64,000 nucleotides of DNA from Streptomyces sp. NRRL F-525 (lineage in GTDB: Bacteria > Actinomycetota > Actinomycetes > Streptomycetales > Streptomycetaceae), in contig NZ_JNXE01000014.1 in assembly GCF_000716605.1 (NCBI RefSeq), positions 1 through 64,000 of the forward strand. Reading direction: 5' to 3'. A program made the translations under genes and the position numbers. Of this stretch, positions 5,754 through 49,292 are shown in pieces. The notes beneath the pieces are model-generated. The model did not search any database. It saw only the letters and a program-made list of their open reading frames with translations, and was not told the DNA's origin. Within the stretch, counting starts at the first letter, position 1, and every line of letters begins with the position of its first letter.

Positions 5754-5785
5754 CGTACGCGGCGCTCCCGTCGAGCGCCGTACGT
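5753..5785 (+). promoter_or_regulatory. Hairpin between rpmI and rplT
   Basis: ACGTAC-gc-GGCGCT (5753-5766) pairs with AGCGCCGTACGT (5774-5785), with a two-base bulge. It overlaps the end of the rpmI stop codon. The lack of a T-run argues against a strong terminator; RNA stabilisation, processing or an L20-binding site is possible. Confidence 0.45.
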
Positions 5786-5855
5786 CTGGACCGGGACCCC
5801 ATCGATTCCGGGCCGTGTGAGTCCAACCACGGCCCCGCTACAAGGAGTTAAACAA

Positions 5856-6239: not shown

Positions 6240-6266
6240 CGCTGCGCTGGTTTGAGCGGTGACTTG

Positions 6267-6299
6267 AAGGACCCGCAGGTTTTTGCCTGCGGGTCCTTT
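6267..6299 (+). terminator. Terminator of the infC-rpmI-rplT operon
   Basis: A 13-bp perfect stem (AAGGACCCGCAGG at 6267-6279, complement ending at 6298) has a short T-rich loop and its 3' arm ends in TTT. It lies 27 nt after the rplT stop. Confidence 0.85.
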
Positions 6300-6330
6300 G
6301 TTGCTGGGGCGGCCCGGTTCGTTGTCGGGT

Positions 6331-6377
6331 GCGGGTGCGTTGTGGCTGGTCGCGCAGTTCCCCGCGCCCCTAAAAAA
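6331..6377 (-). repeat. Dispersed intergenic repeat, copy A
   Basis: Minus-strand copy of the repeat whose 20-nt core is GGGGCGCGGGGAACTGCGCG (here complementary to 6351-6370). The core is followed by ACCAGCCACAACGCACCCGC and, on the other side, by a run of seven T residues read on the minus strand. It lies between the rplT terminator and the SpoU gene. Seven copies occur in this window. Confidence 0.85.
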
Positions 6378-6412
6378 ACACGGTCGGCCTGAGATTGAAG
6401 GTGAAGCGGAGT

Positions 6413-7261
6413 ATGTCCCCGAACGGTCCCGAGCTTATTTCTCCCCGTTCCGCTCGTGTTGCCGCTGCTCGGCGGCTCGGCAAGCGGAACTTTCGGAGCA
6501 AGGAGCGGCTGTTTCTTGCCGAGGGGCCGCAGGCTGTGCGGGAGGCTGCCGGGTACAAGGACACGCTCGTTGAGTTGTTCGCGACCGTTGAGGCTGCCGA
6601 GCGGTATGCCGACATCGTCGGTGAAGCCCGTGAGGCCGGTGCCCGGGTGCATCTTGCGGACGAGCAGGTCATCGCCGATATCTCTACGACGGTCACTCCG
6701 CAGGGGCTCGTCGGGGTCTGTCGGTTTCTCGACACTTCCTTCGAGGAGATTCTCAAGGCGCGGCCCAAGCTCGTTGCCGTGCTTGCCAATGTGCGCGACC
6801 CCGGGAACGCCGGCACCGTTCTGCGGTGTGCTGATGCGGCCGGGGCCGAGGCCGTCGTACTGACTGACGCTTCTGTCGATCTCTACAACCCGAAGGCTGT
6901 ACGGGCGTCCGTGGGCTCCCTGTTCCACCTTCCCGTCGCTGTCGGGGTGCCCGTTGAGCAGGCCGTGGCCGGGCTCAAGGGGATCGGGGTGCGGATTCTT
7001 GCCGCTGATGGGGCCGGGGACGATGACCTCGATGACGAGTTGGATCAGGGGACCATGGGTGGGCCCACCGCCTGGGTGTTCGGGAACGAGGCGTGGGGGC
7101 TTCCGCAGGAGACTCGGGGGCTCGCGGACGCCGTTGTGCGGGTTCCGATCCACGGGAAGGCCGAGAGCCTGAACCTCGCCACCGCCGCCGCCGTATGTCT
7201 CTATGCGTCGGCGCGTGCACAGCGCGCCTCCGGAGGGTGCCGCTCTGTCACCGGCAGCTAG
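6413..7261 (+). CDS. SpoU-family (TrmH-like) RNA 2'-O-methyltransferase
   Basis: 282 residues from ATG 6413; GTG 6401 and TTG 6395 are in-frame alternatives, with GAAGG at 6396-6400 placed best for the ATG. An N-terminal substrate-binding domain (RNFRSKERLFLAEGPQAVRE) precedes a C-terminal SPOUT domain with the knotted SAM-binding motifs: VRDPGNAGTVLRCADAAGA, WVFGNEAWGLP and IPIHG-type VRVPIHGKAESLNLATAAAV. The enzyme probably methylates 23S rRNA ribose. Adjacency to rplT and pheST is a conserved actinobacterial arrangement. The first 40 codons use more T-ending codons than the neighbours. Confidence 0.9.
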   Translation: MSPNGPELISPRSARVAAARRLGKRNFRSKERLFLAEGPQAVREAAGYKDTLVELFATVEAAERYADIVGEAREAGARVHLADEQVIADISTTVTPQGLVGVCRFLDTSFEEILKARPKLVAVLANVRDPGNAGTVLRCADAAGAEAVVLTDASVDLYNPKAVRASVGSLFHLPVAVGVPVEQAVAGLKGIGVRILAADGAGDDDLDDELDQGTMGGPTAWVFGNEAWGLPQETRGLADAVVRVPIHGKAESLNLATAAAVCLYASARAQRASGGCRSVTGS

Positions 7262-7317
7262 TAGGGTGACCAGCTCGGGGGCCACCTGCGCCGTATGAGA
7301 AGAGGTGGGGTACGGGG

Positions 7318-8445
7318 ATGACTGTCGGCACGAGCAGCGCGCCGGGAGCACGGGGTGTGCCCCGGCCGTCCGAGGCCCGGCACGACGACCTCGGCATCGA
7401 TCCCGACGAGCTGGCCGACGGTCTCGTGATCGCCGATGAGCACGGGCATGTCGTCTGCTTCAACGCCGCCGCCGAGCGCATCACCTCCCTCGCCGCCTCC
7501 GACGCCCTTGGGCAGCGGTTGGAGAAGGCCCTTCCGTTAGAGGACCTGGAGGGTCGCCGGTGGTGGCAACTGACCGATCCGTATGGCGGGTTGGCCATCC
7601 GGGTGCGGCAGCCCGAGCGGAACTTGCTGTTGCCGGGCGGGCATGAGGTTCTTGTCACCGCGCGTTACGTCCGTACCGAGCCTCTCGGGCCTGTTCGGCG
7701 GGTTGTCGTCTCCCTTCGTGACACCGAGGCCCGGCGTCGTACCGAGCGCAGTCACGCCGAGCTGATCGCCACCGTCGCGCACGAGCTGCGTTCTCCGCTC
7801 ACCTCCGTCAAGGGGTTCACCGCGACCCTGCTCGCCAAGTGGGAACGTTTCACCGACGACCAGAAGCGGCTGATGCTGGAGACCGTCGACGCCGACGCCA
7901 ACCGCGTCACCCGGCTCATCGCCGAGCTGCTCGACATCTCCCGCATCGACTCGGGGCGGCTGGAGCTGCGCCGCCAGCCCGTCGACATGGGGGCGGCCGT
8001 CGGCCGTCACATCCAGGCGTACGTCGCCGCGGGGCAGACCGCCGACCGGTTCCTGCTCCGGGTGGAACAGCCGCTGCCCGATCTGTGGGCCGACCCCGAC
8101 AAGGTCGACCAGGTGCTGAGCAACCTGCTGGAAAATGCGGTGCGCCACGGCGAGGGAACCGTCACCATCGACGTCACGGCCTCCGCGTCCCCGCGCGAGG
8201 GCGAGGAGACCGGCACCTCGGTGACGGTGAGCGACGAAGGCCCAGGCATCCCGGAGGAGTCCATGAACCGCGTGTTCACCCGCTTCTGGCGGGGCAGCAA
8301 GCGCGGCGGCACCGGCCTCGGGCTGTACATCGTCAAGGGCATCGTCGAAGCCCACGGCGGCACCATCACGGTCGGCCGCGCCCCGGGTGGCGGCGCCGAG
8401 TTCCGATTTACGTTGCCCGTGGGCACCCCGGCGTATCTGCAGTAG
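7318..8445 (+). CDS. Orphan PAS-domain histidine kinase, soluble
   Basis: 375 residues with no transmembrane segment, so a cytoplasmic sensor. A PAS domain lies at about residues 30-135 (ADGLVIADEHGHVVCFNAAAE). A HisKA domain follows with the phosphoacceptor His155 in VAHELRSPLTSVKGF, then an HATPase domain with the N box NLLENAVRHG, G1 DEGPGIP and G2 GTGLGLYIVKGIVEAHGG. No response regulator gene lies nearby, so the partner is encoded elsewhere. It lies between the SpoU gene and pheS, all in one direction. The ligand is unknown; the PAS domain points to a small-molecule or redox signal. Confidence 0.92.
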   Translation: MTVGTSSAPGARGVPRPSEARHDDLGIDPDELADGLVIADEHGHVVCFNAAAERITSLAASDALGQRLEKALPLEDLEGRRWWQLTDPYGGLAIRVRQPERNLLLPGGHEVLVTARYVRTEPLGPVRRVVVSLRDTEARRRTERSHAELIATVAHELRSPLTSVKGFTATLLAKWERFTDDQKRLMLETVDADANRVTRLIAELLDISRIDSGRLELRRQPVDMGAAVGRHIQAYVAAGQTADRFLLRVEQPLPDLWADPDKVDQVLSNLLENAVRHGEGTVTIDVTASASPREGEETGTSVTVSDEGPGIPEESMNRVFTRFWRGSKRGGTGLGLYIVKGIVEAHGGTITVGRAPGGGAEFRFTLPVGTPAYLQ

Positions 8446-8501
8446 CCCTGCAGCAGTCGCCGACGAGGGCCCACGGGCGAGGTCACCTGCCTCACCCCCG
8501 T

Positions 8502-8579
8502 TAGACTCGGCCTTTGGCACCTTTGCGTCCCCGTTTCAGGGACGACGACGCGTCCCCCGAGTCGAGTCGGGACGGGGAC
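8502..8579 (+). promoter_or_regulatory. pheST leader with alternating complementary segments
   Basis: A TAGACT -10-like box is at 8502-8507. Downstream come four alternating segments: CGTCCC (8526-8531), GGGACG (8539-8544), CGTCCC (8551-8556) and GGGACG (8569-8574). They permit 1:2 plus 3:4 pairing or the exclusive 2:3 pairing, the classic layout of an attenuator. Three TTT Phe codons (rare in this genome) occur at 8514-8536 in the pheS frame. I see no leader start codon in that frame and no T-run, so ribosome-mediated control is only a hypothesis. Confidence 0.35.
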
Positions 8580-8611
8580 CATCCGCCAGCCAACCGGAAG
8601 CACGGGAAGAG

Positions 8612-9739
8612 ATGTCGGCACCGAATAAGTCGTACGACCCTGTAGAGGTCGAGGCCTTGAAACCGGAAGAGATCGAGCGCATGCGGGACGAGGCGCTCGC
8701 CGCCTTCGCCGCCGCCGGTGACCTCGACGCGCTCCAGGAGGCCAAGGTCGCCCACACCGGCGGCACCTCGCCCCTCGCCCTCGCCAACCGCGAGATCGGC
8801 GCGCTGCCCCCGCAGGCCAAGGCCGCGGCCGGCAAGCTCGTCGGCCAGGCCCGGGGCGCGGTGAACAAGGCCCTCGCCGCCCGCCAGGCCGAGCTGGAGG
8901 CCGACCGCGACGCCCGCGTCCTGGTCGAAGAGGCGGTGGACGTCACGCTGCCGTACGACCGCGTCCCGGCCGGCGCCCGGCACCCGCTCACCACGTTCAT
9001 GGAGCGCGTCGCCGACGTCTTCGTGTCCATGGGGTACGAGATCGCCGAGGGCCCCGAGGTCGAGGCGGAGTGGTTCAACTTCGACGCGCTCAACTTCACC
9101 CCGGACCACCCGGCCCGGCAGATGCAGGACACCTTCTTCGTCCAGGGCCCCGAGGGGACCGAGGGCGACGAGTCCGGTGTCGTGCTGCGGACGCACACCT
9201 CGCCGGTGCAGGCCCGCGCCATGCTGGACCGTGAGCCGCCGGTCTACATCGTGTGCCCCGGCCGCGTGTACCGCACGGACGAGCTGGACGCCACGCACAC
9301 CCCGGTCTTCCACCAGATCGAGCTCCTCGCCATCGACGAGGGCCTGACCATGGCCGACCTCAAGGGCACCCTCGACCACATGGTCCAGTCGCTCTTCGGC
9401 GCGGAGATGAAGACCCGGCTGCGGCCGAACTACTTCCCCTTCACCGAGCCGTCCGCCGAGATGGACATGCTCTGCTACGTCTGCAAGGGCGAGTCCGTCG
9501 GCAACCCCGACCGCCCCTGCCGTACCTGCTCCTCCGAGGGCTGGATCGAGCTGGGCGGCTGCGGCATGGTCAACCCGCGCGTGCTCGTCGCCTGTGGTGT
9601 GGACCCGGAGAAGTACAGCGGATTCGCGTTCGGGTTCGGCATCGAGCGGATGCTGATGTTCCGCCACAACGTCGAAGACATGCGAGACATCGTCGAGGGC
9701 GACGTCCGGTTCACCCGGCCGTTCGGGATGGAGATCTGA
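8612..9739 (+). CDS. pheS: Phenylalanyl-tRNA synthetase alpha subunit
   Basis: 375 residues from ATG 8612 ([17 protein letters not shown]), the usual length for PheS. The N-terminal coiled coil (about 15-95) binds tRNA. The class II core carries motif 2 around [19 protein letters not shown] and motif 3 in [20 protein letters not shown]. Phe-recognition elements are also present, such as [10 protein letters not shown] small zinc-ribbon-like CYVCKGE...CRTC segment is present, as in other actinobacterial PheS. It forms an alpha2beta2 enzyme with PheT, whose ATG overlaps this stop. The long upstream reading frame is discarded because it overlaps the kinase gene. Confidence 0.97.
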
Positions 9740-12243
9740 TGCGCGTCCCGCTTTCTTGGCTGCGGGAGTACGTCGACCTGCCGGCGACGGAGACCGGCCG
9801 AGACGTCCAGGCCAAGCTCATTTCCGTAGGCCTTGAGGTAGAGACTGTCGAGCAGTTGGGCGACGGCCTCAAGGGCCCGCTCGTCGTCGGCAAGGTCCTC
9901 ACCATCGAGGAGCTGGAGGGCTTCAAGAAGCCCATCCGCTTCTGCACGGTCGACGTCGGTCAGGCCAACGGCACCGGTGAGCCCCAGGAGATCGTCTGCG
10001 GCGCCCGCAACTTCGCCGTCGGCGACAAGGTCGTCGTGGTCCTCCCCGGCGCGGTCCTGCCGGGCGACTTCGCGATCGCCGCGCGCAAGACGTACGGCAA
10101 GACCTCACACGGCATGATCTGCTCCGGCGACGAGCTGGGCATGGGCGACGACGGCTCGCACGGCATCATCGTGCTGCCGCCCGAGCACGAGGTCGGCACC
10201 GACGCGATCGAGCTGCTCCAGCTCGTCGACGAGGTCCTCGACATCGCCGTCACGCCCGACCGCGGCTACGCCCTGTCGATCCGCGGCGTCGCCCGCGAGA
10301 CCGCCACCGCGTACGGCCTCCCGCTGCGCGACCCGGCGCTCCTGGACGTCCCGCAGCCGAACGCCTTCGGCTACCCGGTCCAGGTCTCCGACCCGATGGG
10401 CTGCGACCGCTTCACCGCCCGCACGGTCACCGGCCTCGACCCCGACGCCCGCTCCCCGCTCTGGCTCACGCGCCGCCTCCAGAAGGCGGGCATGCGCCCG
10501 ATCTCGCTCGCCGTCGACATCACCAACTACGTGATGCTGGAGCTGGGCCAGCCCCTGCACGCCTACGACCGTTCCCGCGTCCAGGGTCCGATCGGCGTGC
10601 GCCGGGCCACGCAGGGCGAGAAGCTCACCACCCTCGACGGCGCCAAGCGCACGCTGGACGCCGAGGACCTGGTGATCACCGACGACCGGGGCCCCATCGG
10701 CCTCGCGGGCGTCATGGGCGGTGCCAACACGGAGATCGACGACACCGAGGGCACCACCACCGAGGTCGTCGTCGAGGCCGCGCACTTCGACGCGCTCTCC
10801 ATCTCGCGTACGGCCCGCCGCCACAAGCTGGCCTCCGAGGCGTCCAAGCGCTTCGAGCGCGGAGTCGACCCGCAGGCCGCGTCGGCCGCCGCCCAGCGCA
10901 CGGTGGACCTCCTGGTCCTCCTCGCGGGCGGCACGGCGGACGCGGGCGTCACCGAGGTCATCGCGCCCTCGGCCCCGCACACCATCACCATCCCGGCGGA
11001 CCACCCGGACAAGGTCGCGGGTGTCGAGTACGGCCGCGAGACCGTCGTACGGCGTCTCCAGGAGGTCGGCTGCGACGTGTACGGGCAGGACGAGCTGATC
11101 GTCACCGTCCCGTCCTGGCGCCCCGACCTCACCGACCCGAACGACCTGGCCGAAGAGGTCATCCGCCTGGAGGGCTACGAGAACCTGCCCTCCACGCTCC
11201 CCAAGCCCCCCGCGGGCCGGGGCCTAACCGACCGCCAGCGCCTCCACCGCCGGATCGGCCGCGCGCTGGCCGGTGCCGGTTACGTCGAGGCGCCGAACTA
11301 CCCCTTCATCGGCGAGCACGTCTTCGACCAGTTCGGCCTGACCGCCGACGACCCGAACCGCAAGGTCGTCAAGCTGGTCAACCCGCTCTCGGACGAGGAG
11401 CCGGCGCTTCGTACGACGCTGCTGCCGGGGCTGCTGGGTGCCTTGCGGCGCAATGACGGTCGGGGCTCGCATGATCTCGCGCTGTTCGAGACCGGGCTGG
11501 TCTTCCACCCGCGTGAAGAGCTGAAGATCGCGGTACGGCTGCCTGTCGACCGGCGTCCCACCGACGAGGAGATCGCTTCTCTCACCGAGGCGCTGCCCGT
11601 TCAGCCTCGGCATGCCGCCGTCGTCCTCGCGGGCGCGCGTGAGCAGGCCGGGTGGTGGGGCAAGGGGCGGCCGTCCGACTGGGCCGACGCGGTCGAGGCG
11701 GCGCGGGTGCTGGCGCGTGAGGCCGGGACCGAACTCCTTGTGCGGGGTGGGCAGTACGGGCCCTGGCATCCGGGGCGGTGTGCGGAACTCGCCGTTGTCG
11801 TCGAGGGTGTTGAGCAAGTCATCGGGTACGCGGGGGAGTTGCACCCGGGTGTGCTGAAGACGCTGGGGTTGCCTGCGCGTACCAGTGCGATGGAACTCGA
11901 CCTGGATGTCCTTGAGTTGGCGTCTTCGGGGGTTCCCAAGGGGCCGAAGATCTCTACGTTCCCTGTTGCTACGCAGGATGTCGCGCTCGTTGTTGATGTG
12001 GCTGTGCCGCATGCGGGGGTTGAGGCTGCGTTGCGTGAAGGGGCGGGTGAGCTGCTGGAGTCGATCCGGTTGTTCGACGTCTATGAGAATGCTGCGCAGT
12101 TGGGCGAGGGCAAGAAGTCGCTGGCGTATGCGTTGCGGTTCCGGGCGGCTGATCGGACGTTGACTGTCGATGAGGCGTCGGCGGCTCGGGATGCGGCGGT
12201 CGCGTTGGCTGGAGAGCGGGTCGGGGCCGTGCTTCGCGGCTAA
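9739..12243 (+). CDS. pheT: Phenylalanyl-tRNA synthetase beta subunit
   Basis: 834 residues, starting at the ATG that overlaps the pheS stop (9737-9741). Domains in order are: N-terminal region [17 protein letters not shown], tRNA-binding/OB fold (about 40-155, [24 protein letters not shown]), B3/B4 editing domain, B5 DNA-binding-like domain, the catalytic-like core, and the C-terminal anticodon-binding FDX-ACB domain ([16 protein letters not shown]). The editing domain hydrolyses Tyr-tRNA(Phe). Codon use shifts in the last 300 codons toward T- and G-ending codons, a drift visible by eye. Confidence 0.97.
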
Positions 12244-36815: not shown

Positions 36816-37999
36816 CCGCCAATGAGGAGCTGACCCAGCGCTGGCAGGGGTCGCTCATGAACAACTACGGCACCCCGAAGCTCCCCCTCGTCCGCGGCGC
36901 CGGTGCCAAGCTGTGGGACGCCGACGGCAACGAGTACGTCGACTTCGTCGGCGGGATCGCGGTCAACGCCCTCGGGCACGCCCACCCGGCGATCGTCGAG
37001 GCCGTCAGCACGCAGATCGCCCAACTCGGCCATGTCTCCAACCTGTTCATCGCCGAACCGCCCGTCACCCTCGCCGAACGGCTGCTTGAGCGGTTCGGCC
37101 GGGACGGCAAGGTGTTCTTCTGCAACTCCGGCGCCGAGGCCAACGAAGGCGCCTTCAAGATCGGCCGGTTGACGGGCCGTCAGCACATGGTCGCCACCCA
37201 AGGCGCCTTCCACGGACGGACGATGGGCTCCCTCGCCCTCACCGGCCAGCCCGCCAAGCAGGAGCCGTTCCTGCCGCTGCCCGGCGATGTCACACACGTG
37301 CCCTACGGCGACGCGCAGGCGCTGGCCGCCGCCGTCACCGAGGACACCGCGCTCGTCATCATCGAGCCGATCCAGGGCGAGAACGGCGTCGTCGTACCGC
37401 CCGCCGGCTACCTGAAGGCGGCCCGCGCCATCACCGCCGCGCACGGCGCGCTGCTGGTCCTGGACGAGGTGCAGACCGGGGTCGGCCGTACCGGGCACTG
37501 GTTCGAGTACCAGGCCCACGAAGGCGTGCTGCCCGATGTCGTGACCCTCGCGAAGGGACTCGGCGGCGGGCTGCCGCTCGGCGCCACCGTCGCCTTCGGT
37601 CGTGCGGCCGAGCTGCTCCAGCCGGGCCAGCACGGCACGACGTTCGGCGGCAACCCGGTCGCCTGCGCCGCCGGACTCGCCGTACTCGACACCATCGCGA
37701 ACGAGGGGTTGCTGGAGAACGTCAAGCGGCAGAGCGAGAAGCTGCGGGACGGAATCGAGTCGCTGGGCCACCCGTTGATCGATTATGTCCGGGGTGCGGG
37801 TCTCCTCCTGGGTATCGTGCTCACCGAGCCGCTCGCGCCCCAGGCGCAACAGGCGGCTCAGGACGCCGGCTTCCTGGTCAACGCGCCCGCCCCCGATGTC
37901 GTACGGCTGATGCCACCGCTGAACCTCGGCGACGACGAGGCGGACGCGTTCCTCCGGGCGCTGCCCGGTGTTCTGGACGTGGCCAAGGGGGACGGATGA
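36812..37999 (+). CDS. argD: Acetylornithine aminotransferase
   Basis: 395 residues from ATG 36812. A class III PLP aminotransferase: [31 protein letters not shown], the Asp-Glu region [15 protein letters not shown] and the PLP Lys in [15 protein letters not shown]. It converts N-acetylglutamate semialdehyde to N-acetylornithine and may also act in lysine metabolism. It overlaps argB by ATGA and precedes argR by a 19-bp gap. Confidence 0.97.
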
Positions 38000-38018
38000 T
38001 CCGGAGAATGAGTCGACG

Positions 38019-38558
38019 ATGAGCCAGGCGCAGGAGCACGAGCACACCGCGGGGCCCGCCGTGCCGCAGACCCGCACCGCCCGCCACCGCCGGATCGTGG
38101 ACATCCTCAACCGGCAACCGGTGCGTTCCCAGAGCCAGTTGGCGAAGCTGCTGTCCGACGACGGGCTGAGTGTCACGCAGGCGACGCTCTCCCGGGACCT
38201 GGACGAGCTGAACGCGGTGAAGATCCGCAACAACGACGGCGACCTCATCTACGCGGTCCCGAGCGAGGGCGGTTTCCGCACCCCGCGCGTGCCGCTGGGG
38301 GAGTCGGCGAAGGAGGAGCGGATGCGGCGGCTCTCCTCCGAGCTGCTGATCTCCGCGGAGGCCTCCGCCAACCTCGTGGTCCTGCGCACCCCGCCGGGCG
38401 CCGCCCAGTTCCTCGCCTCGGCGATCGACCAGGCCGAACTCCAGGACATCCTCGGCACCATCGCCGGCGACGACACGCTCCTGCTGATCAGCCGGGACCC
38501 GCTCGGCGGCCAGGCCCTCGCGGACCATCTGCTGCGGCTGGCGCAGAACGACCACTGA
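38019..38558 (+). CDS. argR: Arginine repressor
   Basis: 179 residues from ATG 38019. Winged-helix N-terminal domain ([39 protein letters not shown]) and C-terminal oligomerisation/arginine-binding domain with the GDDT-type motif [15 protein letters not shown]. It forms a hexamer and represses arg genes with arginine. ARG-box-like sites stand before argC and argH. Last gene of argCJBDR, closed by a strong terminator. Confidence 0.96.
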
Positions 38559-38575
38559 CGTAGCCGTACGGCCAA

Positions 38576-38619
38576 CGAGTCGGGGGTGCACCGGAGTTGT
38601 CCGGTGCACCCCCGACTCG
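38576..38619. terminator. Bidirectional terminator between argR and apbE
   Basis: A 20-bp perfect stem (38576-38595 with 38600-38619) with loop GTTG. It separates the arg operon from the convergent flavin-transfer operon and would end both. Confidence 0.9.
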
Positions 38620-38628
38620 CATGGGGCT

Positions 38629-39432
38629 TCAGCCGAGTCTGGCCGCCAGGCCGCCGGTGCAGCGCACCTCGTCGCCCGCCGTGATGAGCAGGGCTTCTAC
38701 GTCCGGCAGCGACTCCAGCCAGGCAAGGCCCTCCCGCGAGCCCATCGCGAACGCGGCCGTGGCCCAGCAGTCGGCCCAGGTCAGACGCGGTGCCACGACG
38801 GTGACCGCGACCAGGTCGGTCACCGCGGACTTGCCGGTGCTCGGGTCCACGATGTGCGCCCCGCGCTCCGCCGTACCGGAGGTCGCCACGGCCAACTCAT
38901 CAGCGCCCGCAGCGGAGATGACGGCCGCGAGACCGCCCGGGCGGAGCGGGTCGGAGACGCCGACGCGCCAGGGCCGGTGCGGTCCCGGGGTGCCGAACAT
39001 CTGGACGTCGCCGCCGCCGTTCACGCTGACCCCGCTCACCCCGGCCGCCGCCGCGATCAGCTCGGCCGCGCGCTCGGCGGCCCAGCCCTTCACGACGCCG
39101 GTGGGGTCGAGGGGTCCCTCGTACTTGGTGCTGAACCAGCCGGCGCTCACCCGCTCCGCCTCGGCGCCCAGCTCCAGCACCTCGGCGACCTCGGCGTCGC
39201 ACTCGGCCAGGGTCAGCTCGCCGCGGGCCAGCCGGGAGACCTGGCTGTCGTCGCGGTAGGTGCTGAACACCTCGTTCACGCGGTGCAGTTGGGCGATCGC
39301 CTGCTCCAGCGCGGTGCGGACGGCCTCGGGCTCCCCGCCGCGGATGTCGAAGGAGAACACCGTCCCCATGACCTCCTCGGCGTGCCGCAGTTCGGCGGGT
39401 GCCGCCGCGGGATCGGTCACCGTGTCAGCCAC
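38629..39432 (-). CDS. FAD:protein FMN transferase (ApbE)
   Basis: 267 residues, a flavin transferase that splits FAD and attaches FMN to a Ser/Thr of exported targets. Diagnostic motifs: MGTVFSFDI near the start, LDPTGVVKGWAAERAAELI, VSVNGGGDVQMFG, and the magnesium/FAD element HIVDPSTGKS. No signal peptide is visible, so action may be in the cytoplasm before export or the anchor is missing. It overlaps the upstream FMN-binding protein gene by 8 bp, so it belongs to the redox operon. It has two FMN-binding proteins as obvious substrates. Confidence 0.92.
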   Translation of the reverse strand: MADTVTDPAAAPAELRHAEEVMGTVFSFDIRGGEPEAVRTALEQAIAQLHRVNEVFSTYRDDSQVSRLARGELTLAECDAEVAEVLELGAEAERVSAGWFSTKYEGPLDPTGVVKGWAAERAAELIAAAAGVSGVSVNGGGDVQMFGTPGPHRPWRVGVSDPLRPGGLAAVISAAGADELAVATSGTAERGAHIVDPSTGKSAVTDLVAVTVVAPRLTWADCWATAAFAMGSREGLAWLESLPDVEALLITAGDEVRCTGGLAARLG

Positions 39433-40213
39433 CGGCCTTGTCCAGCGCCGACTGCAGGGACTTCTTGTAGCCGCCGCTCGTGTACGAAGCGCCCGACACG
39501 GAGTCGATGTTCGCGTTCCCGGCGGCCACGGCCTCCTGGTTGAGCTTGGGGACCGCCAGCGCCGTCTTCTGGTCGCTGGTGCCGCCGCTCGGGGCCTGCA
39601 CCGCGTCGGCCTTGGTGATCTTGCCGCCCGCGACCGTGATCCTGACCTGGACGGGCCCGTACTCGGTCGTCACGACATCACCGGTGACGGTCTTGGCCTG
39701 GGCGGCCTGACCCGACCCGGCGGCCGAACTCTGGGACGGGGCGGCCGTGTTGGTGCCGGCGGCCTTCATCTTGTCGATGGCCGACTGCAGCGACTGCTTG
39801 TAGCCGGCGCTGGTGTAGCTCGCCCCGGACACGGACGTGATGTCCGCGCTCTGGGTGGCCACGACCTCCTGGTTGAGCTTGGGCACGGACAGCGCGGTCT
39901 TCTGGTCGCTGGTGCCGCCCTTGGGCGCCTGGACCGCCTCGGCCTTGGTGATCTTGCCGTTGGCGACCGTCAGGCGCACCTGGACGACCCCGTACTGGGT
40001 CTGGGCGACGGCGCCCGTGACCGTCGAGGTCCCGGCCGCCGCGGCACCGCCCTGGGGCGACTCCTGTGCGGCGGCGGTCTCCTGGGCCGCCGCACCCTGC
40101 GCGGACGCCGACGAGGAGTCGGTCGCCGGCTTCAGGGAGAGCAGCAGCACGATCCCGGACACGGTGGCGGCGCTCGCAAGCAGAACACGCCGGATGGGGT
40201 GGCTCTTCTTCAT
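39425..40213 (-). CDS. Exported FMN-binding protein with two tandem domains
   Basis: 262 residues. The N-terminus MKKSHPIRRVLLASAATVSG is a signal peptide or anchor, followed by a low-complexity Ala/Gln linker. Two FMN-binding domains (about 60-145 and 173-262) are nearly identical in pattern; each ends in SVSGASYTS, whose Thr/Ser is the expected site of covalent FMN attachment by ApbE. The protein therefore can carry two flavins outside the membrane as a relay. It lies directly downstream of a ferric-reductase-like gene (19 bp) and upstream of apbE. Confidence 0.9.
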   Translation of the reverse strand: MKKSHPIRRVLLASAATVSGIVLLLSLKPATDSSSASAQGAAAQETAAAQESPQGGAAAAGTSTVTGAVAQTQYGVVQVRLTVANGKITKAEAVQAPKGGTSDQKTALSVPKLNQEVVATQSADITSVSGASYTSAGYKQSLQSAIDKMKAAGTNTAAPSQSSAAGSGQAAQAKTVTGDVVTTEYGPVQVRITVAGGKITKADAVQAPSGGTSDQKTALAVPKLNQEAVAAGNANIDSVSGASYTSGGYKKSLQSALDKAGG

Positions 40214-40232
40214 CGCTCCTGACTCCCGTCGC

Positions 40233-41615
40233 TCACATCTCGAACGACTCGTGATGGATACGGCGGGCGGGAACCCCGGCGCCGCGCAGTGCTTCGTAGA
40301 CCGACTGCGCGAAGCCGGGCGGCCCGCACATGAAGACGTCGTGGTTGTCGATGTCCGGCAGCTTCCGGCGCAGGGAGTCCGCCGAGATGTCGGGGCGCTC
40401 CCCGCCGGGGCTGTTGACCGCGTACATCAGGCGGGCGCCGCGCTCGTCGGCGATCTTCGCCAGCTCGTCCCACAGCGCCAGGTCCTGGGTGGTGTTGGCG
40501 CGGTAGAGCAGCGTGATGTCACCGGCGCCCCCGGGCAGCGTCTCGAACAGGGCCCGCATCGGCGTGATGCCGACGCCGCCCGCGACCAGCAGCACCTTGC
40601 CGCGGGTGCGCCGCTGCGAGGTCATCGCGCCGTACGGGCCCTCGGCCCACACCTTGGTGCCGGGGCGCAGCTCGCGCAGCCGGGCGCTGTGGTCGCCGAT
40701 CGCCTTGACCGTGATCCGCAGCATGTTCGGGCGGGGTGCCGCCGACAGCGAGTACGGGTGCGAGCTGAACCGCATGCCCGGCGCCAGGAACCGCCACCGG
40801 AAGAACTGCCCGGCCTCCGCGCCGATCCGGTGCAGCTTGCGCCCGCTGATCAGCACGGACACGATGCCGGGCGTCTCCTCGATGACCGCCTCGACCCGCA
40901 TCCGGTGCCGCATGTTGAGGCGGATCGGGGTGAGGATCCGGTACCAGACGACCAGCGCGGTGACCGTGCCGTAGAGCCCGTACCAGACGGTCTTGGCGAT
41001 CGGCGTCAGCGCGAAGTCGTTGCCGGTGCTGATCTGGTGCCAGAAGGTGAAGAACACCGCCGCGTACGTCAGCAGATGCACGTGGTACCACAGGTCGTAC
41101 GGCAGCCTGCGGCGGACGGCGCCGATCGACGAGAGGCCGATGAGCAGGAACAGGCCGGTGCCGATCGCGGCCTTGCCCATGTCGGGCAGCTGGTTCACCG
41201 AGTCGATGGTCTGCTGGACGATGTCGCTCAGCGTCTTGCCCGCCTGGAGGGCGTAACCCCACATGATGAGGAAGACGTGCGCGAAGACCAGGCAGAGCGT
41301 GTAGCGGCCGCTCATCGCGTGCCAGCGGGCGACCCGGTCGGAGCCGACCCGGCGTTCCAGGGCGGGCACGCGGGCCATCTGGAGCACGACGAGTGCCATC
41401 AGATAACCGGCCAACAGGCCGGTGATACGGCCCGCGTTGAGGATCTTGCCGTTCTGGTCGGCGATGGACGGCGTGTTGTGCCACCACAGCCACAGCACCC
41501 CGACCGCGCCCGCCCAGACGGCGAGCAGCAGCAGGGTCGCTGGGGAGCGGCGCGGGCGGATGCGGCGCATCGTCTGTCGGCGGGCGGCACGTCCGCCTGC
41601 GAGCGTGGTGGTCAC
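40233..41615 (-). CDS. Ferric-reductase-like transmembrane oxidoreductase 1
   Basis: 460 residues. About six membrane helices (residues 20-235) form a ferric reductase-like heme domain; likely heme ligands are His in RWHAMSGRYTLCLVFAHVFL and in YHVHLLTYAAVFFTFWHQ. A cytoplasmic ferredoxin-reductase module follows: FAD site HPYSLSAAP, NAD(P) site GGVGITPMRALFETLP and CGPPGFAQSVYEAL. It moves electrons from NAD(P)H via FAD and heme to the outer face. The linked flavinylated proteins are the natural acceptors. The signature ends FAQ...HHESFEM, the same as in its paralogue at 42169. Confidence 0.92.
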   Translation of the reverse strand: MTTTLAGGRAARRQTMRRIRPRRSPATLLLLAVWAGAVGVLWLWWHNTPSIADQNGKILNAGRITGLLAGYLMALVVLQMARVPALERRVGSDRVARWHAMSGRYTLCLVFAHVFLIMWGYALQAGKTLSDIVQQTIDSVNQLPDMGKAAIGTGLFLLIGLSSIGAVRRRLPYDLWYHVHLLTYAAVFFTFWHQISTGNDFALTPIAKTVWYGLYGTVTALVVWYRILTPIRLNMRHRMRVEAVIEETPGIVSVLISGRKLHRIGAEAGQFFRWRFLAPGMRFSSHPYSLSAAPRPNMLRITVKAIGDHSARLRELRPGTKVWAEGPYGAMTSQRRTRGKVLLVAGGVGITPMRALFETLPGGAGDITLLYRANTTQDLALWDELAKIADERGARLMYAVNSPGGERPDISADSLRRKLPDIDNHDVFMCGPPGFAQSVYEALRGAGVPARRIHHESFEM

Positions 41616-41690
41616 GGTTCCTCCGTGGACGGGGCAAGGGGGGTGGGCTGGTCCCTTGGCCCTGAAGTACGTGCCGTTGCGCCTGTGCGT

Positions 41691-42161
41691 TCAGAGTCCC
41701 GCGGAGTCCAGTGCGGACTGGAGTGACTGGCGGTAACCGTCACTTGTGTAGGTGGCGCCCGACACCGTGTCGATGCTCGCGCTCTGCGCGGACAGCACCT
41801 CGCGCCTCAGCTCCGGCAGGGCATAGGAGTTGATCTCCTGGTCGCGCGGATTGTCCGACGGCGACTGGACCGCGGTGGCATCGGTGATCCTGCCGTTCTT
41901 GACGGTGATCTTCACCTGCACGGGACCCCAACGGGTCTGCGCGGTCTCGCCGGTGACGGTCTTGGTGCCGGTGGCGCTCGAACCGCCGGACCCCGTACCG
42001 GTACCGGCACTGGAGCTGCTCGACGGCGCGGTCGCGGGGGACGCCGCTATCGCGGGCGCCGTGTGCGGCTTCAGCGCCAGCAGCATCACCAGACCGGACG
42101 CGGTGACCGCGCTCGCCAGCACGATCCGGCGCAGCGGCCGGCTCTTCTTCAACGGATGCAC
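41691..42161 (-). CDS. Exported FMN-binding protein, single domain
   Basis: 156 residues from GTG 42161, seven bases after the stop of the upstream reductase gene; the longer frame would overlap that gene. A signal anchor (LKKSRPLRRIVLASAVTASG) and Ser/Gly-rich linker precede one FMN-binding domain (about 70-156) ending in TVSGATYTSDGYRQSLQSAL, with the flavin-attachment motif SGATYT. The domain differs from those at 39425 in carrying NPRDQEINSYALPEL in place of GGTSDQKTALSVPKL. Partner: the reductase at 42169; modifying enzyme: ApbE at 38629. Confidence 0.88.
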   Translation of the reverse strand: MHPLKKSRPLRRIVLASAVTASGLVMLLALKPHTAPAIAASPATAPSSSSSAGTGTGSGGSSATGTKTVTGETAQTRWGPVQVKITVKNGRITDATAVQSPSDNPRDQEINSYALPELRREVLSAQSASIDTVSGATYTSDGYRQSLQSALDSAGL

Positions 42162-42168
42162 GACGGCC

Positions 42169-43521
42169 TCACAGCTCGAACGACTCGTGGTGGATACGGC
42201 GGTCCGGCACACCGGCGGCGCGCAGTGCCCCGTACAGCTCCTGGGCGAACGCGTGCGGGCCGCAGATGTACACGTCGTGCCCGGCCAGATCGGGCACGGC
42301 CTCGCGCAGCGCCGCCGCGCCGAGCGAAGGGCGTTGCCCCTGCGGCCCGTTGAGCGCGTACAGCACCTTCGCCCCGCGCCACTGCGCGATGGCCTCCAAC
42401 TCGGCGCCCAGCGCCAGGTCTTGGGCGGTCCGCGCCCGGTACAGCAAGGTCACCTCACCCGGCAGCGTCTCGAACAGCGCCCGCAGCGGGGTGATCCCGA
42501 CCCCGGCCGCGATCAGCAACGACCGCTGCGCGGTGCGCCGTTCGGCGGTCAGCGAGCCGTACGGCCCCTCCGCCCACACCCGCGCCCCCGGCCGCAGCAA
42601 GGGCACGGCCGCGCTGTGGTCGCCGAGCGCCTTGACCGTGATCCGCAGCAGGTCCCGCCGGGGCGGCGCCGACAGGGAGTACGGCGTCGACGTCCACCCC
42701 ATCCCCTCCCCGAAGAACCGCCAGCGGAAGAACTGCCCTGCCTGCGCGCCGAGTTCGTCGACATGCCGGCCGCGTACGACGACGGAGTACACGCCCGGCG
42801 CCTCCCGGTGCACGGACTCGACCCGAAGCCGGTGCCGCAGGTTGAGCCGCACCGGGGCGAGGATCCGGTACCAGAGGACGAGGGCCGCGACACCGAGGTA
42901 CAGGCCGTACCAGGCGGCCGTGGCTCCGGCGTGGCCGTTGAACTCGTTGCCCAGGCTCAGTTGGTGGAAGAAGGTGAGGAACACGGCGACGTACGTGAGG
43001 AGATGGACGTAGTACCAGAACTCGTAGCTGACTCTGCGCCGCGCGGCCCGGGCCGAGGTGATGCCGACCGCGAACAGGATCACCGCGCCGAAGGTTGCCT
43101 TCAGCATGTCCGGATAGTCGAGTACGACAGTCACCGTCTCGTGCACGATCGAGGCGCGGTCCTGGGCGGCGTAGCCGAGCAGGATGAACACGACGTGCAC
43201 GACCAGCAGGCAGACCGTGTACCGCCCGGCCATCGCGTGCCAGCGGGCCACCCGGTCCGAGCCGACCCGGCGCTCCAGCAGCGGGACCCGCGCCATCAGA
43301 CCTACGAGAACCGCGCAGGCGTAGCCGCACAGCAGCCCGGCGATCCGCCCGATCCCGGTCAGCCAGCCCGCCGCCCCGACCACCGACCCGGTGTCCGCCC
43401 ACCAGAGGGCGACCGAGGCAGCCGCTCCGGCCCAGATCAGCCCGAGCACCGCGCCCGCCGGTGAACGCCGGGGAGCCGGCGCCACGGGCGGTGCCGTCCG
43501 TCGTTCGTACACGGTGGTCAT
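42169..43521 (-). CDS. Ferric-reductase-like transmembrane oxidoreductase 2
   Basis: 450 residues and a clear paralogue of the gene at 40233 (same order of domains, identical blocks such as ERRVGSDRVARWHAM and WAEGPYG). Six membrane helices with likely heme His in RWHAMAGRYTVCLLVVHVVF and YYVHLLTYVAVFLTFFHQ. FAD motif TPYSLSAPP, NAD(P) motif AGVGITPLRALFETLPGE and CGPHAFAQELYGAL complete the reductase. It is the first gene of the operon, so the order is reductase 2 - FMN carrier - reductase 1 - double FMN carrier - apbE. It is divergent from the two-component genes. Confidence 0.92.
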   Translation of the reverse strand: MTTVYERRTAPPVAPAPRRSPAGAVLGLIWAGAAASVALWWADTGSVVGAAGWLTGIGRIAGLLCGYACAVLVGLMARVPLLERRVGSDRVARWHAMAGRYTVCLLVVHVVFILLGYAAQDRASIVHETVTVVLDYPDMLKATFGAVILFAVGITSARAARRRVSYEFWYYVHLLTYVAVFLTFFHQLSLGNEFNGHAGATAAWYGLYLGVAALVLWYRILAPVRLNLRHRLRVESVHREAPGVYSVVVRGRHVDELGAQAGQFFRWRFFGEGMGWTSTPYSLSAPPRRDLLRITVKALGDHSAAVPLLRPGARVWAEGPYGSLTAERRTAQRSLLIAAGVGITPLRALFETLPGEVTLLYRARTAQDLALGAELEAIAQWRGAKVLYALNGPQGQRPSLGAAALREAVPDLAGHDVYICGPHAFAQELYGALRAAGVPDRRIHHESFEL

Positions 43522-43566
43522 GTGTGTGTCCTCTCACCCGTCCTGCACACAACTGTGGGGGCCGAA

Positions 43567-43622
43567 CTTCTGAGGGATCTCTGAGCGGACGGCTTTCTCA
43601 GCTTTCTCAGAGGAAACTCAGA
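43567..43622 (+). promoter_or_regulatory. Direct-repeat operator region between the redox operon and its two-component system
   Basis: Two head-to-tail copies of CTTTCTCAG (43593-43610) are flanked by CTGAG in inverse orientation (TTCTGAGGGATCTCTGAG, 43568-43585) and by ACTCAGAG (43616-43623). Tandem 9-bp repeats are the usual target pattern of OmpR/PhoB-type regulators. The position, upstream of both the reductase operon and the regulator gene, suggests control of both. Confidence 0.55.
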
Positions 43623-43672
43623 GCGGTCCACGGCGGCCGACGGCGCCGCCAGGGGGGATGCTGGTAAACGCC

Positions 43673-44410
43673 ATGAACACGACCCGCTCCGGCCGACCGG
43701 CCCTCACCCGCCCCGACGGCACCCCCGTGCGCGTCCTCGTCGTCGACGACGACCCCGACCTCGCCGAGGTGCTGTCCGGCGCCCTGCGCTACGAGGGCTG
43801 GGAGGTCCGCGCGGCCGGCGACGGCGCCGCCGCGCTCGCCGGGGCGCGCGAGCTGCGGCCCGACGCCGTCGTCCTCGACGTGATGCTCCCGGACACCGAC
43901 GGCTTCGCCGTGCTGCGCTCCCTGCACGAGGTCAAGCCCGACGTCTGCGTGCTCTTCCTCACCGCCCGGGACACCGTCGAGGACCGCATCGCCGGCATCA
44001 CCGCGGGCGGCGACGACTACGTCACCAAGCCCTTCAGCCTGGAGGAGGTCGTGGCCCGGCTGCGCGGACTCCTCCGCCGTGCGGGCATGGCCCGCCAGCA
44101 GGAGGAGGGCCCCCGGATGACCGTCGGGGACCTGGTCATGGACGAGGAGGCCCGCGAGGTCACCCGCGCGGGCGACCTCGTCGAGCTGTCGCCGACCGAG
44201 TTCGAACTCCTCCGCTTCCTCATGCGCAACCCGCGCCGCGTCCTCAGCAAGGCCCAGATCCTCGACCGCGTCTGGTCCTACGACTTCGGCGGCCAGGCCC
44301 ATGTCGTCGAGCTGTACATCTCGTACCTGCGCAAGAAGGTGGACGCGGGCCGCGCCCCCATGATCCACACCGTGCGCGGGGCCGGGTACGTGCTCAAGCC
44401 GGTGCCCTGA
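43673..44410 (+). CDS. OmpR/PhoB-type response regulator
   Basis: 245 residues from ATG 43673; ATG 43658 lies five codons upstream but has no room for a ribosome-binding site. The receiver domain (about 20-130) has the acidic pocket VVDDDPD, phospho-acceptor Asp in AVVLDVMLPDTDG and Lys in DDYVTKPFSLEEV. A winged helix (about 155-240) ends with VWSYDFGGQAHVVELYISYL and TVRGAGYVL. It is cotranscribed with the kinase gene, whose ATG overlaps its stop. Divergence from the flavinylation operon makes that operon the likely target. Confidence 0.93.
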   Translation: MNTTRSGRPALTRPDGTPVRVLVVDDDPDLAEVLSGALRYEGWEVRAAGDGAAALAGARELRPDAVVLDVMLPDTDGFAVLRSLHEVKPDVCVLFLTARDTVEDRIAGITAGGDDYVTKPFSLEEVVARLRGLLRRAGMARQQEEGPRMTVGDLVMDEEAREVTRAGDLVELSPTEFELLRFLMRNPRRVLSKAQILDRVWSYDFGGQAHVVELYISYLRKKVDAGRAPMIHTVRGAGYVLKPVP

Positions 44411-45876
44411 TGCGGGGACCGCGCTGGCCGCACACCCTGCGGGCACGGCTGACGGCGGGCCTGGTCGTACTCCTCGCGGTCAGCTGCGCCGCCGTCGGGG
44501 TGGCCGCGGTGATCGAGCTGGACGGGTTCCTCACCGGCCGCCTCGACCAGCAGCTGACCGAGGTCGGCACCCAGTTCCCGGCCAGCCTGGAGCACAAGGG
44601 CCAGACACTGACCGACCACGACGCCGACGACCGGGAACGCGGCGACACCCGCCGCCAGGCACCGGGCACGTTCGGCGCCCGCCTGGTCGACGGCACCGTC
44701 ACCAACGCGGCGGTCGTGCCCGCCGACAAGGACGACACCACGACCGACCTGAAGGTCACCCTGACCGCGCGGGACCGGAGGGAACTCGCCGCCGTACCGG
44801 CCGACGGCAGGGCCCGCACCCTCCGCCTCTCCTCCCTCGACAGATACCGCGTCCTCGCCGCCCAGGGCCGGGACGGCGACGTACTGATCACCGGCCTGCC
44901 GCTGGAGTCGGTGGAGGCCACCGTCCACCGGCTGGAGACGGTCGAGGCGATCGTCTTCGGCGCCGCCCTCCTGATCACCGGCTTCGCGGGCGCGCTCTGG
45001 GTCCGCTGGTCGCTACGACCCCTCAGCCGCGTCGCCGCCACGGCCACCCGGGTCAGTGAACTCCCGCTGGCCAGCGGTGAGGTGACCCTGCCGCCCCGGG
45101 CACCCGAGTCCGACCCTCGCAGCGAGGTGGGCCGCCTCGCCGGTGCCTTCAACCGCATGCTCGGCCATGTCGAGGACGCGCTCACCCACCGGCACGCCAG
45201 CGAGGAACGCCTCCGCAGCTTCGCGGCCGACGCGAGCCACGAACTGCGCACCCCGGTGGCGTCGATCCGGGGCCACGCCGAACTCGCCCTGCTGCACCCG
45301 GACCCCGTCCCGCCCAAGGTCACCCGCGCGCTGGAACGCATCGCCGCCGAGTCCACCCGTATGGGCGTCATGGTCGACGAGATGCTCCTCCTCGCCCGCC
45401 TCGACGCCGGCCGCCCCCTGGAACGCAGCCCGGTCGACCTCACCCACCTCGTCCTCGACGCGATCTCCGACGCCCGAGCCGCCGGCCCCGACCACCGCTG
45501 GACCCTCCAACTCCCCGAGGAACCCGTCACGGTCACAGGCGACGCCCACCGCCTCCAACAACTCCTGGCCAACCTGCTGGCCAACGCCCGTCTGCACACA
45601 CCGGCCGGCACAAAGGTGACGGTGACCGTGGAGACGGGCGACGGCGTGACCTACTTGGTGGTCCACGACGACGGCCCGGGAGTCCCGCCCGAGATCCAAC
45701 CAGGAGTCTTCGAACGCTTCACCCGAGCGGACCGCCGCCGAGCGGACAGCGGGGGAGGAGGAGCGGGCCTGGGCCTGTCGATCGTGTCGGCGGTGGCGGA
45801 GGCACACGGGGGAAGCGTGACCCTGGAGAGCCGCCCGGGCTCAACAACGTTCACGGTCCAACTCCCGCCGGCCTGA
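44410..45876 (+). CDS. Sensor histidine kinase
   Basis: 488 residues. Two membrane helices (about 12-34 and 175-197) flank an extracytoplasmic sensor domain of about 140 residues. A HAMP segment follows (RWSLRPLSRVAATATRVSEL), then HisKA with phospho-acceptor His in FAADASHELRTPVASIRGH. The HATPase domain shows LLANLLANARLHTP, VHDDGPGVPPE and GAGLGLSIVSAVAEAHGG. The sensor domain has no recognised ligand; redox, metal or envelope state would be plausible given the adjoining operon. Its stop is followed by repeat copy E. Confidence 0.93.
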   Translation: MRGPRWPHTLRARLTAGLVVLLAVSCAAVGVAAVIELDGFLTGRLDQQLTEVGTQFPASLEHKGQTLTDHDADDRERGDTRRQAPGTFGARLVDGTVTNAAVVPADKDDTTTDLKVTLTARDRRELAAVPADGRARTLRLSSLDRYRVLAAQGRDGDVLITGLPLESVEATVHRLETVEAIVFGAALLITGFAGALWVRWSLRPLSRVAATATRVSELPLASGEVTLPPRAPESDPRSEVGRLAGAFNRMLGHVEDALTHRHASEERLRSFAADASHELRTPVASIRGHAELALLHPDPVPPKVTRALERIAAESTRMGVMVDEMLLLARLDAGRPLERSPVDLTHLVLDAISDARAAGPDHRWTLQLPEEPVTVTGDAHRLQQLLANLLANARLHTPAGTKVTVTVETGDGVTYLVVHDDGPGVPPEIQPGVFERFTRADRRRADSGGGGAGLGLSIVSAVAEAHGGSVTLESRPGSTTFTVQLPPA

Positions 45877-46801: not shown

Positions 46802-47653
46802 TCACTTGGTGAGCGTGCAGGCGGCCAGGGAGTCGAGACCGGAGGGCTTGGTGCCCTGACGCCCGATGGCGATGGCGATCCGGTCAATGGTGGACACGCG
46901 CTTGTCCTTCAGCGGACCGAGGATCGCGTTCTGGACGAAGTTGGGGCCACCCTGTCCGACGGTGTCGACGAGCCGCTTGTTGGCCTCGGCGATCTGGGTG
47001 TCGAGAAGGGTGAGGTTGCGGTCGACCTCGGCCTGCGCGGAAGCCGGAACCGCGGGCAGCTGCGACTTCACGTCGGGGCACGAGATGGTCCCGGCCGCCG
47101 TGGTGGTGTCCGTCCCGCCGGCCGCGTCGGTGGCGGACGCCGTGGCACTCGGAGTCGCGGTGTCGGTCGCACCGGTATCCGTACCGGTGTTGGTCCCGGT
47201 CCCGCCGGTGTTGAGGGCGCAGGTGGCCAGCGAGTCGAGCCCGGTCGGCTTGGTGCCCTGACGCCCGATGGCGATGGCGATCCGGTCAATGGTGGACACG
47301 CGCTTGTCCTTCAGCGGACCGAGGATCGCGTTCTGGACGAAGTTCGCCCCACCCTGCCCGACCGTGTCGACGAGTCGCTTGTTGGCCTCGGCGATCTGGG
47401 TGTCGAGGAGGGTGAGGTTGCGGTCGACCTCGGCCTGCGCGGAAGCCGGGACGGCAGGCAGCTGCGACTTCACGTCGGGGCAGGAGATCGTCCCCGGGTC
47501 GGACAACGTCCGGGCGCTCTGCGCGGTGCTGCTCTTGTCCGGCGTCCCGGCGAGAGCGGACCCGGCGATGACCGCGCCGGACAGCACCACGGCGGCGGCA
47601 CCGCCGATGAACACGACGCGACGCTTGTTGTACTTGGGGAGAGCCCTGGACAT
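46802..47653 (-). CDS. Exported protein with two almost identical tandem domains
   Basis: 283 residues. Basic N-terminus and signal peptide (RRVVFIGGAAAVVLSGAVIA, cleavage near SALA). Two domains of about 95 residues (54-148 and 188-282) are virtually identical; each starts TISCPDVKSQLPAVPASAQA and includes NKRLVDTVGQGG and VSTIDRIAIAIGRQGTKP, with a Cys near each end. A Thr/Gly/Ala-rich linker of 35-40 residues separates them. Each domain looks helical with one possible disulfide. I do not recognise a function. It is monocistronic and closed by a terminator. Confidence 0.8.
   Translation of the reverse strand: MSRALPKYNKRRVVFIGGAAAVVLSGAVIAGSALAGTPDKSSTAQSARTLSDPGTISCPDVKSQLPAVPASAQAEVDRNLTLLDTQIAEANKRLVDTVGQGGANFVQNAILGPLKDKRVSTIDRIAIAIGRQGTKPTGLDSLATCALNTGGTGTNTGTDTGATDTATPSATASATDAAGGTDTTTAAGTISCPDVKSQLPAVPASAQAEVDRNLTLLDTQIAEANKRLVDTVGQGGPNFVQNAILGPLKDKRVSTIDRIAIAIGRQGTKPSGLDSLAACTLTK
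46806..47491. repeat. Direct duplication of about 284 bp inside a gene
   Basis: Bases 46806-47089 and 47208-47491 are near-identical with an offset of 402 bp. Long stretches match exactly at the nucleotide level, including synonymous positions, so the duplication is recent or kept uniform by gene conversion. Confidence 0.85.

Positions 47654-47822: not shown

Positions 47823-49292
<1,470 letters not shown>

Follow-up and report, generated by a model that had tools for sequence, protein, structure and literature searches.

A tandemly doubled flavinylation locus of Streptomyces, one half of which appears to be under a dedicated two-component switch

The soil bacterium Streptomyces sp. NRRL F-525 (genome about 10.9 Mb) harbors between argR (about 37983-38558) and argH (47859-49292) seven genes that probably encode a system for NAD(P)H-driven, flavin-based electron export, present as a tandem duplicate of which one half would be under a private switch. 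The locus lies within positions 1 to 64,000 of contig NZ_JNXE01000014.1 (assembly GCF_000716605.1, forward strand); this stretch of 64,000 nucleotides is called the window below, and all coordinates refer to it. The closest named relatives at the seven-gene locus are Streptomyces. Two findings concern the switch: reductase 2, carrier 1, response regulator and sensor kinase are inherited together or not at all, and the candidate operator between the two divergent halves of the locus is rare and, among 18 genomes searched, found only in those with the kinase.

Gene Organization

A sequence-only reading of the window had described, in operon order, reductase 2, carrier 1, reductase 1, carrier 2 and apbE, divergent from a regulator/kinase pair. 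All seven genes are indeed found, the first five in this 5′ to 3′ order on the minus strand and the pair on the plus strand, at these places:

38575..38620: strong hairpin in the convergent gap between apbE and argR, probable two-way terminator (minimum free energy −56.7 kcal/mol for an 81-nt stretch)
38629..39432, minus strand: apbE, FAD:protein FMN transferase (FAD, flavin adenine dinucleotide; FMN, flavin mononucleotide), no signal peptide (PF02424, E = 2.1e-44; GTG start at 39432)
39425..40213, minus strand: carrier 2, hydrophobic N-terminal anchor and two FMN-binding domains, each with SGASYT (PF04205, two stretches)
40233..41615, minus strand: reductase 1, ferric-reductase-like protein with six transmembrane helices, two heme sites and FAD/NAD(P)H domains (PF01794, FAD_binding_8, PF00175)
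41653..41675, minus strand: conserved element 5′ of reductase 1, possibly its own promoter or regulatory region, GGNACGTATNTGNGGGCCAAGGG
41691..42161, minus strand: carrier 1, N-terminal anchor and one FMN-binding domain with SGATYT (PF04205, E = 2.9e-11)
42169..43521, minus strand: reductase 2, paralogue of reductase 1 (PF01794, PF00175)
43568..43585, plus strand: candidate operator B, TTCTGAGGGATCTCTGAG, 11-bp direct repeat, the one nearer to reductase 2
43606..43623, plus strand: candidate operator A, CTCAGAGGAAACTCAGAG, 11-bp direct repeat
43658..44410, plus strand: response regulator of the OmpR/PhoB family (PF00072, PF00486)
44410..45876, plus strand: membrane-bound sensor histidine kinase with two transmembrane helices, a small extracytosolic domain, HAMP, HisKA and HATPase

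The GTG start of apbE overlaps the 3′ end of carrier 2, and the GTG start of carrier 1 was picked by conservation of the N-termini of its orthologues. In the following, reductase 1, carrier 2 and apbE are referred to as module 1, reductase 2 and carrier 1 as module 2.

All-or-None Inheritance of Module 2 and the Two-Component Pair

Related loci were collected by a scan of one named collection with reductase 1; the best 80 of 347 confirmed stretches were annotated, and further loci were added. Since the 80 are the best matches to the reductase 1 of a doubled locus, doubled loci are over-represented among them. Four of the loci (L116-L119) are duplicates of L086, L090, L089 and L104 (two doubled, two single); they are included in the counts of heme histidines, twin arginines, operators, upstream elements, stubs and third domains given below, and excluded from the two counts that follow.

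After removal of the duplicates there were 93 loci of the argR type, 54 doubled and 39 with module 1 only. Regulator and kinase are present wherever a doubled locus could be tested (53 of 53), and both are absent from 39 of 39 single-module loci. Within the 80-locus set the pair occurs in 49 of the 50 doubled and in none of the 30 single loci, the record of the remaining doubled one (L047) stopping about 190 bp before reductase 2; 13 further non-duplicate loci concur (four doubled with the pair, nine single without). The pair is thus never found without reductase 2 in argR-type loci nor, where testable, reductase 2 without the pair, and the genes for reductase 2, carrier 1, regulator and kinase behave as one inheritance unit. 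The co-conservation of two-component and redox genes expected from the sequence alone is therefore strict for reductase 2 and carrier 1, but not for reductase 1, carrier 2 and apbE, which stand alone in 39 of the 93 loci.

Remains of the missing genes are still visible in part of the single loci. At least 40 nt of the 3′ coding sequence of carrier 1 are left beside reductase 1 in 14 of 41 (13 of 39 without duplicates), more than 110 nt in L091; a stricter stub pattern was matched by 6 of the 41 and by none of the shuffled sequences. These stubs indicate that the loci in question arose by deletions in which carrier 1 and reductase 2 disappeared along with regulator and kinase. On an 87-locus tree of argD, reductase 1 and apbE, built by a quick method with support only from the Shimodaira-Hasegawa-like approximate likelihood ratio test (SH-aLRT), the doubled and single states require 13 changes, and well-supported branches make 11 of these unavoidable. 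From this tree and, in part, from the stubs we infer that related species have lost module 2 and its switch jointly on many occasions. Had unequal crossing-over between the two reductases acted alone, the pair would have been left behind, which suggests that without module 2 the pair has little use.

The Two-Component System and Its Putative Operators

The regulator combines a receiver with a winged helix, and the kinase has the HAMP, HisKA and HATPase domains of an OmpR/PhoB-type two-component system; a membrane sensor pair, as postulated from the sequence, is supported. OmpR-family regulators typically use direct-repeat operators. In operator A two CTCAGAG halves are separated by GAAA, and in operator B TTCTGAG and CTCTGAG are separated by GGAT. 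The tandem repeats that had been noted between the divergent halves are real and conserved beyond what shuffling predicts: of the 58 corresponding intergenic regions (two duplicate and three stand-alone loci included), 57 contain operator A (CTCAGAGNAAACTCAGAG) with at most two mismatches, 37 of them as an exact copy, and shuffled intergenic regions nearly always show 6-10 mismatches. The regulator would bind to these two 11-bp direct repeats.

Operator A occurs as a single exact copy in the whole genome. When 17 further genomes were searched with at most one mismatch, it was found in six of six doubled genomes, in two of three single-module genomes whose kinase is a stand-alone copy at another place, and in none of eight genomes without kinase, the presence of the kinase being defined as a sensor part of at least 56% identity. 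In the 18 genomes, this one included, operator A thus occurs once or twice and only together with the kinase (in 9 of the 10 genomes that have it); a control search with the reversed pattern gave no site. Because it is rare and confined to kinase-bearing genomes, the switch looks dedicated to the locus. A wider regulon was considered and dropped, the one further site in the genome (two mismatches, near a gene for an esterase-like secreted protein) being probably due to chance.

The sensor domain of the kinase was modeled as PAS-like with a mean predicted local distance difference test score (pLDDT) of 83.4; its sole fold match with E below 0.001 was weak (TM-score 0.37). The kinase matched a heavy-metal sensor model only below the cut-off, and this match is consequently no evidence that it senses metals.

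Since the element 5′ of reductase 1 is common to single and doubled loci (35 of 41 and 52 of 56, respectively, with at most three mismatches to GGNACGTATNTGNGGGCCAAGGG; four duplicate loci counted), a separate promoter for module 1 is possible. In the 41 single loci, no site within 200 bp 5′ of reductase 1 came nearer to operator A than six mismatches.

Reductases and FMN Carriers

Domain content provides the parts for electron transfer from NAD(P)H to extracellular FMN that had been proposed. The two reductases are 59% identical. The four histidines expected to bind the two hemes are invariant in reductase 1 (His99, 113, 180 and 193; 98 of 98 sequences) and in reductase 2 (His95, 109, 173 and 186; 60 of 60), the window and the duplicate loci counted, and the pairs are likewise invariant in a 27-sequence alignment reaching distant relatives. 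A model of reductase 2 from 27 sequences (pLDDT 84.7, predicted TM-score 0.77) has six long helices and would place the histidine pairs on the third and the fifth (88-121 and 166-190). Its best match among solved structures is the NADPH oxidase (NOX) of Streptococcus pneumoniae, SpNOX (8qt6, E = 1.8e-19, TM-score 0.77 normalized by target), and NOX5, DUOX1 and the phagocyte NOX also rank high. As modeled, reductase 2 therefore has the features of a NOX-type enzyme, two histidine pairs on transmembrane helices 3 and 5 and an FAD/NADPH domain of the NOX fold. With SpNOX (8qt6, 8qq7) it would share the fold of transmembrane two-heme and FAD/NADPH domains; it differs in sequence (19% identity) and in its linkage to FMN carriers and ApbE.

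The predicted three FMN attachment sites were all recovered and checked in orthologues, SGASYT twice in carrier 2 and SGATYT once in carrier 1. The second domain of carrier 2 matches PDB 8p2a, which we take to be the SaFMN3 domain of the S. azureus study, over 88 residues (E = 2.3e-37; 70 of 88 identical, about 80%). SaFMN3, a three-domain relative from S. azureus, contains covalent FMN, has a single redox potential of −184 mV and can use O2 as electron acceptor (PMC10339131). It resembles carrier 2 in FMN-domain family and in being a multi-domain carrier with a predicted membrane anchor; it has three domains instead of two (PMC10339131), as do the carriers of some single-module loci.

Judged by hydropathy only, each carrier has a positively charged N-terminus followed by a single hydrophobic segment (residues 12-30 and 10-28). 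By the positive-inside rule such an N-terminus stays on the cytosolic side, so the FMN domains should face outward. Carrier 2, with more than one FMN-binding domain in a single, presumably exported protein, has the make-up of a multi-flavinylated protein. A twin arginine precedes the hydrophobic region in 60 of 60 sequences of carrier 1 and 94 of 94 of carrier 2. It was dropped as a decisive sign of twin-arginine translocation (Tat), because it is equally present in 68 of 68 sequences of an unrelated neighboring protein, and in some distant carriers KR, RK or RIR stands in place of RR. Export by either the Tat or the general secretory (Sec) route would fit.

A third FMN domain in carrier 2 was seen in 16 of 36 single versus 3 of 49 doubled loci (Fisher p = 4e-5; 12 of the 97 loci could not be classified and were dropped); examples among the single-module loci are L069, L085, L091, L100 and L113. 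That it compensates for the loss of module 2 was rejected, the association having no significance with independent pairs on the tree.

Proposed Mechanism and Electron Acceptor

We propose that NAD(P)H reduces FAD at the cytosolic face of reductase 1 or 2, that the electrons cross the membrane via the two hemes held by the histidine pairs on helices 3 and 5, and that they are passed to the predicted covalent FMN of the carriers anchored outside, which would deliver them to a small acceptor, most likely a ferric chelate or O2. Module 1, with its own conserved upstream element, would be the stable core, and module 2 with the two-component pair an inducible add-on; the kinase would sense a condition of the envelope, and the regulator, on the two 11-bp repeats, would control the divergent locus.

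The redox part of the locus is, from its domains, one of the published MsrQ-like flavinylation systems, defined by PF01794 in a cluster with PF02424 and/or PF04205: 1797 such clusters, broadly distributed in Actinobacteria, were reported, 1437 of them with PF00175 (Meheust et al., eLife 2021; PMC8238504). All three families occur here. The reductases combine six transmembrane helices and two heme sites with a C-terminal PF00175 domain, and the carriers supply, by hydropathy only, the target with a signal peptide or lipidation site. The electron-export locus put forward from the sequence alone is thus chemically plausible, but its kind was already known (PMC8238504). Several FMN proteins in one cluster are not new either, since 157 clusters with a multi-flavinylated and further FMN-binding proteins were listed in the survey (PMC8238504). 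What sets the Streptomyces locus apart from MsrQ-like systems as described there are the two reductase/carrier modules, the divergent two-component pair with its putative operators, and the leaderless ApbE; in the survey text, "two-component" occurs once, inside the title of a reference (PMC8238504).

Several observations weigh against the proposed mechanism with its private switch. No acceptor enzyme or iron transporter was recognized in the locus. One genome with a kinase of 56% identity (G011) has no operator A at up to one mismatch, and another (G003) holds two copies. Stubs of at least 40 nt are left in only a third of the single loci, loss in the others being deduced from the tree. The leaders discussed below were judged by hydropathy and start codons rather than by a trained predictor.

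An assimilatory ferric reductase serving iron uptake is a possible alternative, though one we do not expect to hold. Its basis is membership in the PF01794 family and the finding that elsewhere 153 MsrQ-like clusters contain a VIT1-type iron transporter (PMC8238504), against which stands that none of the ten scanned proteins of the locus and its neighbors is an iron transporter; the below-cut-off match of the kinase to a heavy-metal sensor model lends no support either.

We regard it as unlikely that the enzymes are oxidant generators like the NADPH oxidases, delivering electrons directly or via the carriers to O2 and forming superoxide or H2O2 outside the cell as signal or weapon. SpNOX is the nearest solved fold, with NOX5, DUOX1 and the phagocyte enzyme ranking high, reduced SaFMN3 is reported to use O2 (PMC10339131), and some related Streptomyces reductases have no detected carrier or ApbE (L141, L142, L144-L147). 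However, a pure NOX needs no carrier, and carrier 2 stands beside reductase 1 in all 79 readable of 80 loci; nor does reactivity with O2 in vitro prove a physiological acceptor.

ApbE and the Site of Flavinylation

The sequence-only reading took it as known that ApbE attaches FMN to exported domains. The carriers do look exported, but ApbE has no export signal, which that account left unsaid: upstream of 39432 there is no in-frame ATG, GTG or TTG, the protein has no hydrophobic segment, and the N-termini of its orthologues are alike. In a sample of the genus, ApbE matches were found in 32 of 61 genomes. All 30 Streptomyces ApbE loci read are free of a leader by hydropathy (29 among the matches listed and one of this genome, hence not every matched gene), as are all three ApbE genes of this genome. 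In 103 regions from phylum and relatives' samples (80 hand-picked from the matches, 23 from relatives), none of 22 ApbE genes touching a gene for an FMN carrier has a leader; 12 of these 22 clusters come from the relatives' regions, which were found through reductase similarity. Where the carrier lies 1.2-2.7 kb away, 12 of 13 ApbE proteins have a leader, the thirteenth being cut by a contig end. The 58 ApbE regions in which the narrow model recognized no carrier are outside this count.

With ApbE leaderless and the carriers apparently exported, flavin attachment in the cytosol is the simplest reading. ApbE would load FMN onto the carriers before or during export, and we give an even chance to the generalization that in Streptomyces, and probably also in the majority of Actinomycetes that have clusters of this kind, a leaderless ApbE does so in the cytosol and the carriers are exported loaded. 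Published models, going beyond the definition of MsrQ-like systems, assign ApbE to the outer side of the membrane where carriers are exported (PMC10339131, PMC9973259), and in a Salmonella experiment cited in a review a cytosolic ApbE could not replace the exported one (PMC12052999). It is nevertheless doubtful that the ApbE described here leaves the cell without a signal, by an unconventional or piggy-back route, for extracytosolic flavinylation as in Listeria: a hydrophobic N-terminus is missing in 30 of 30 Streptomyces loci and from the three enzymes of this genome, and cytosolic ApbE enzymes are known, for example in Klebsiella (PMC12052999). The Klebsiella-type enzyme also lacks a signal peptide, but its substrate is a soluble fumarate reductase (PMC12052999), whereas the substrates here look exported. 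With the Listeria system FmnB/PplA/EetB the Streptomyces locus would share a covalent-FMN carrier outside the membrane; there, FAD is exported to an extracytosolic ApbE-like enzyme (PMC9973259), and the Streptomyces locus instead combines a leaderless ApbE with a membrane enzyme of the PF01794 type.

Origin of the Doubling

A reductase tree of 89 rows, which sampled the loci, groups reductases 1 and 2 as sister clades (support 100/99; the bootstrap was not fully settled) within relatives linked to a two-component system: regulator, kinase, reductase and carrier are also found in stand-alone Streptomyces loci and in four loci of the same order. What fits best is a single system linked to a two-component pair, its tandem duplication, which would be old, and repeated trimming thereafter. 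A merger of a two-component-linked with an argR-linked locus, for which the stand-alone regulator/kinase/reductase/carrier/apbE loci elsewhere in some Streptomyces genomes (L133-L135, L143) might speak, is very improbable and disfavored by the tree, in which the stand-alone type falls outside the sister reductases (outer split 94/83, not starred). The earlier suggestion that two modules point to two different acceptors or potentials found no support: the modules appear to be sister duplicates, and the related three-FMN protein of Streptomyces has one potential, −184 mV (PMC10339131).

The same genome contains a second complete system (L136, G000:C10:44000-62000, about 5650-10455), in which kinase and regulator are divergent from a reductase, accompanied by a one-domain FMN carrier (motif GATIT), whose hydrophobic region is preceded by KR instead of RR, and by a leaderless ApbE. 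A third divergent kinase/regulator pair lies next to a gene for a ferric-reductase-like protein (L138, G000:C11:1-18000, about 5021-9198), where the models used recognized neither FMN carrier nor ApbE. The two-heme-type reductases of Streptomyces L141, L142 and L144-L147 form a separate clade of the tree; no FMN carrier or ApbE was recognized nearby and no two-component pair is linked, L146 showing two weak regulator matches.

Neighboring Genes

The hairpin between apbE and argR has a long perfect stem (z = −7.67 versus shuffles). The kinase is followed 3′ by an L,D-transpeptidase-like gene and then by a gene for a secreted repeat protein (46805-47653) with two near-identical repeats of about 90 residues and no family above the cut-off. 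A repeat protein with its N-terminus was found in 68 of 100 loci examined, RR lying within the first 20 residues in all 68.

Biological Significance

The kind of redox chemistry was known before; new are what appears to be an old tandem duplication, an inheritance unit of four genes that includes an apparently dedicated switch, and the probable location of ApbE. At the level of titles and beginnings of abstracts, nothing was recognized in the literature on these Streptomyces loci, their two-component pair, or a leaderless ApbE with exported substrates.

The locus gives concrete access to the regulation of an actinobacterial flavinylation system; no earlier case turned up in the literature searches made. 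As the kinase/regulator pair apparently has a regulon of one locus, the signal it senses would reveal when the cell must export electrons, and species can be compared through the repeated all-or-none losses, which amount to natural knock-outs. The leaderless ApbE makes the site of protein flavinylation directly testable: if the carriers are loaded in the cytosol, the order of events would be the reverse of the FAD-export route of Listeria, and no FAD exporter would be needed.

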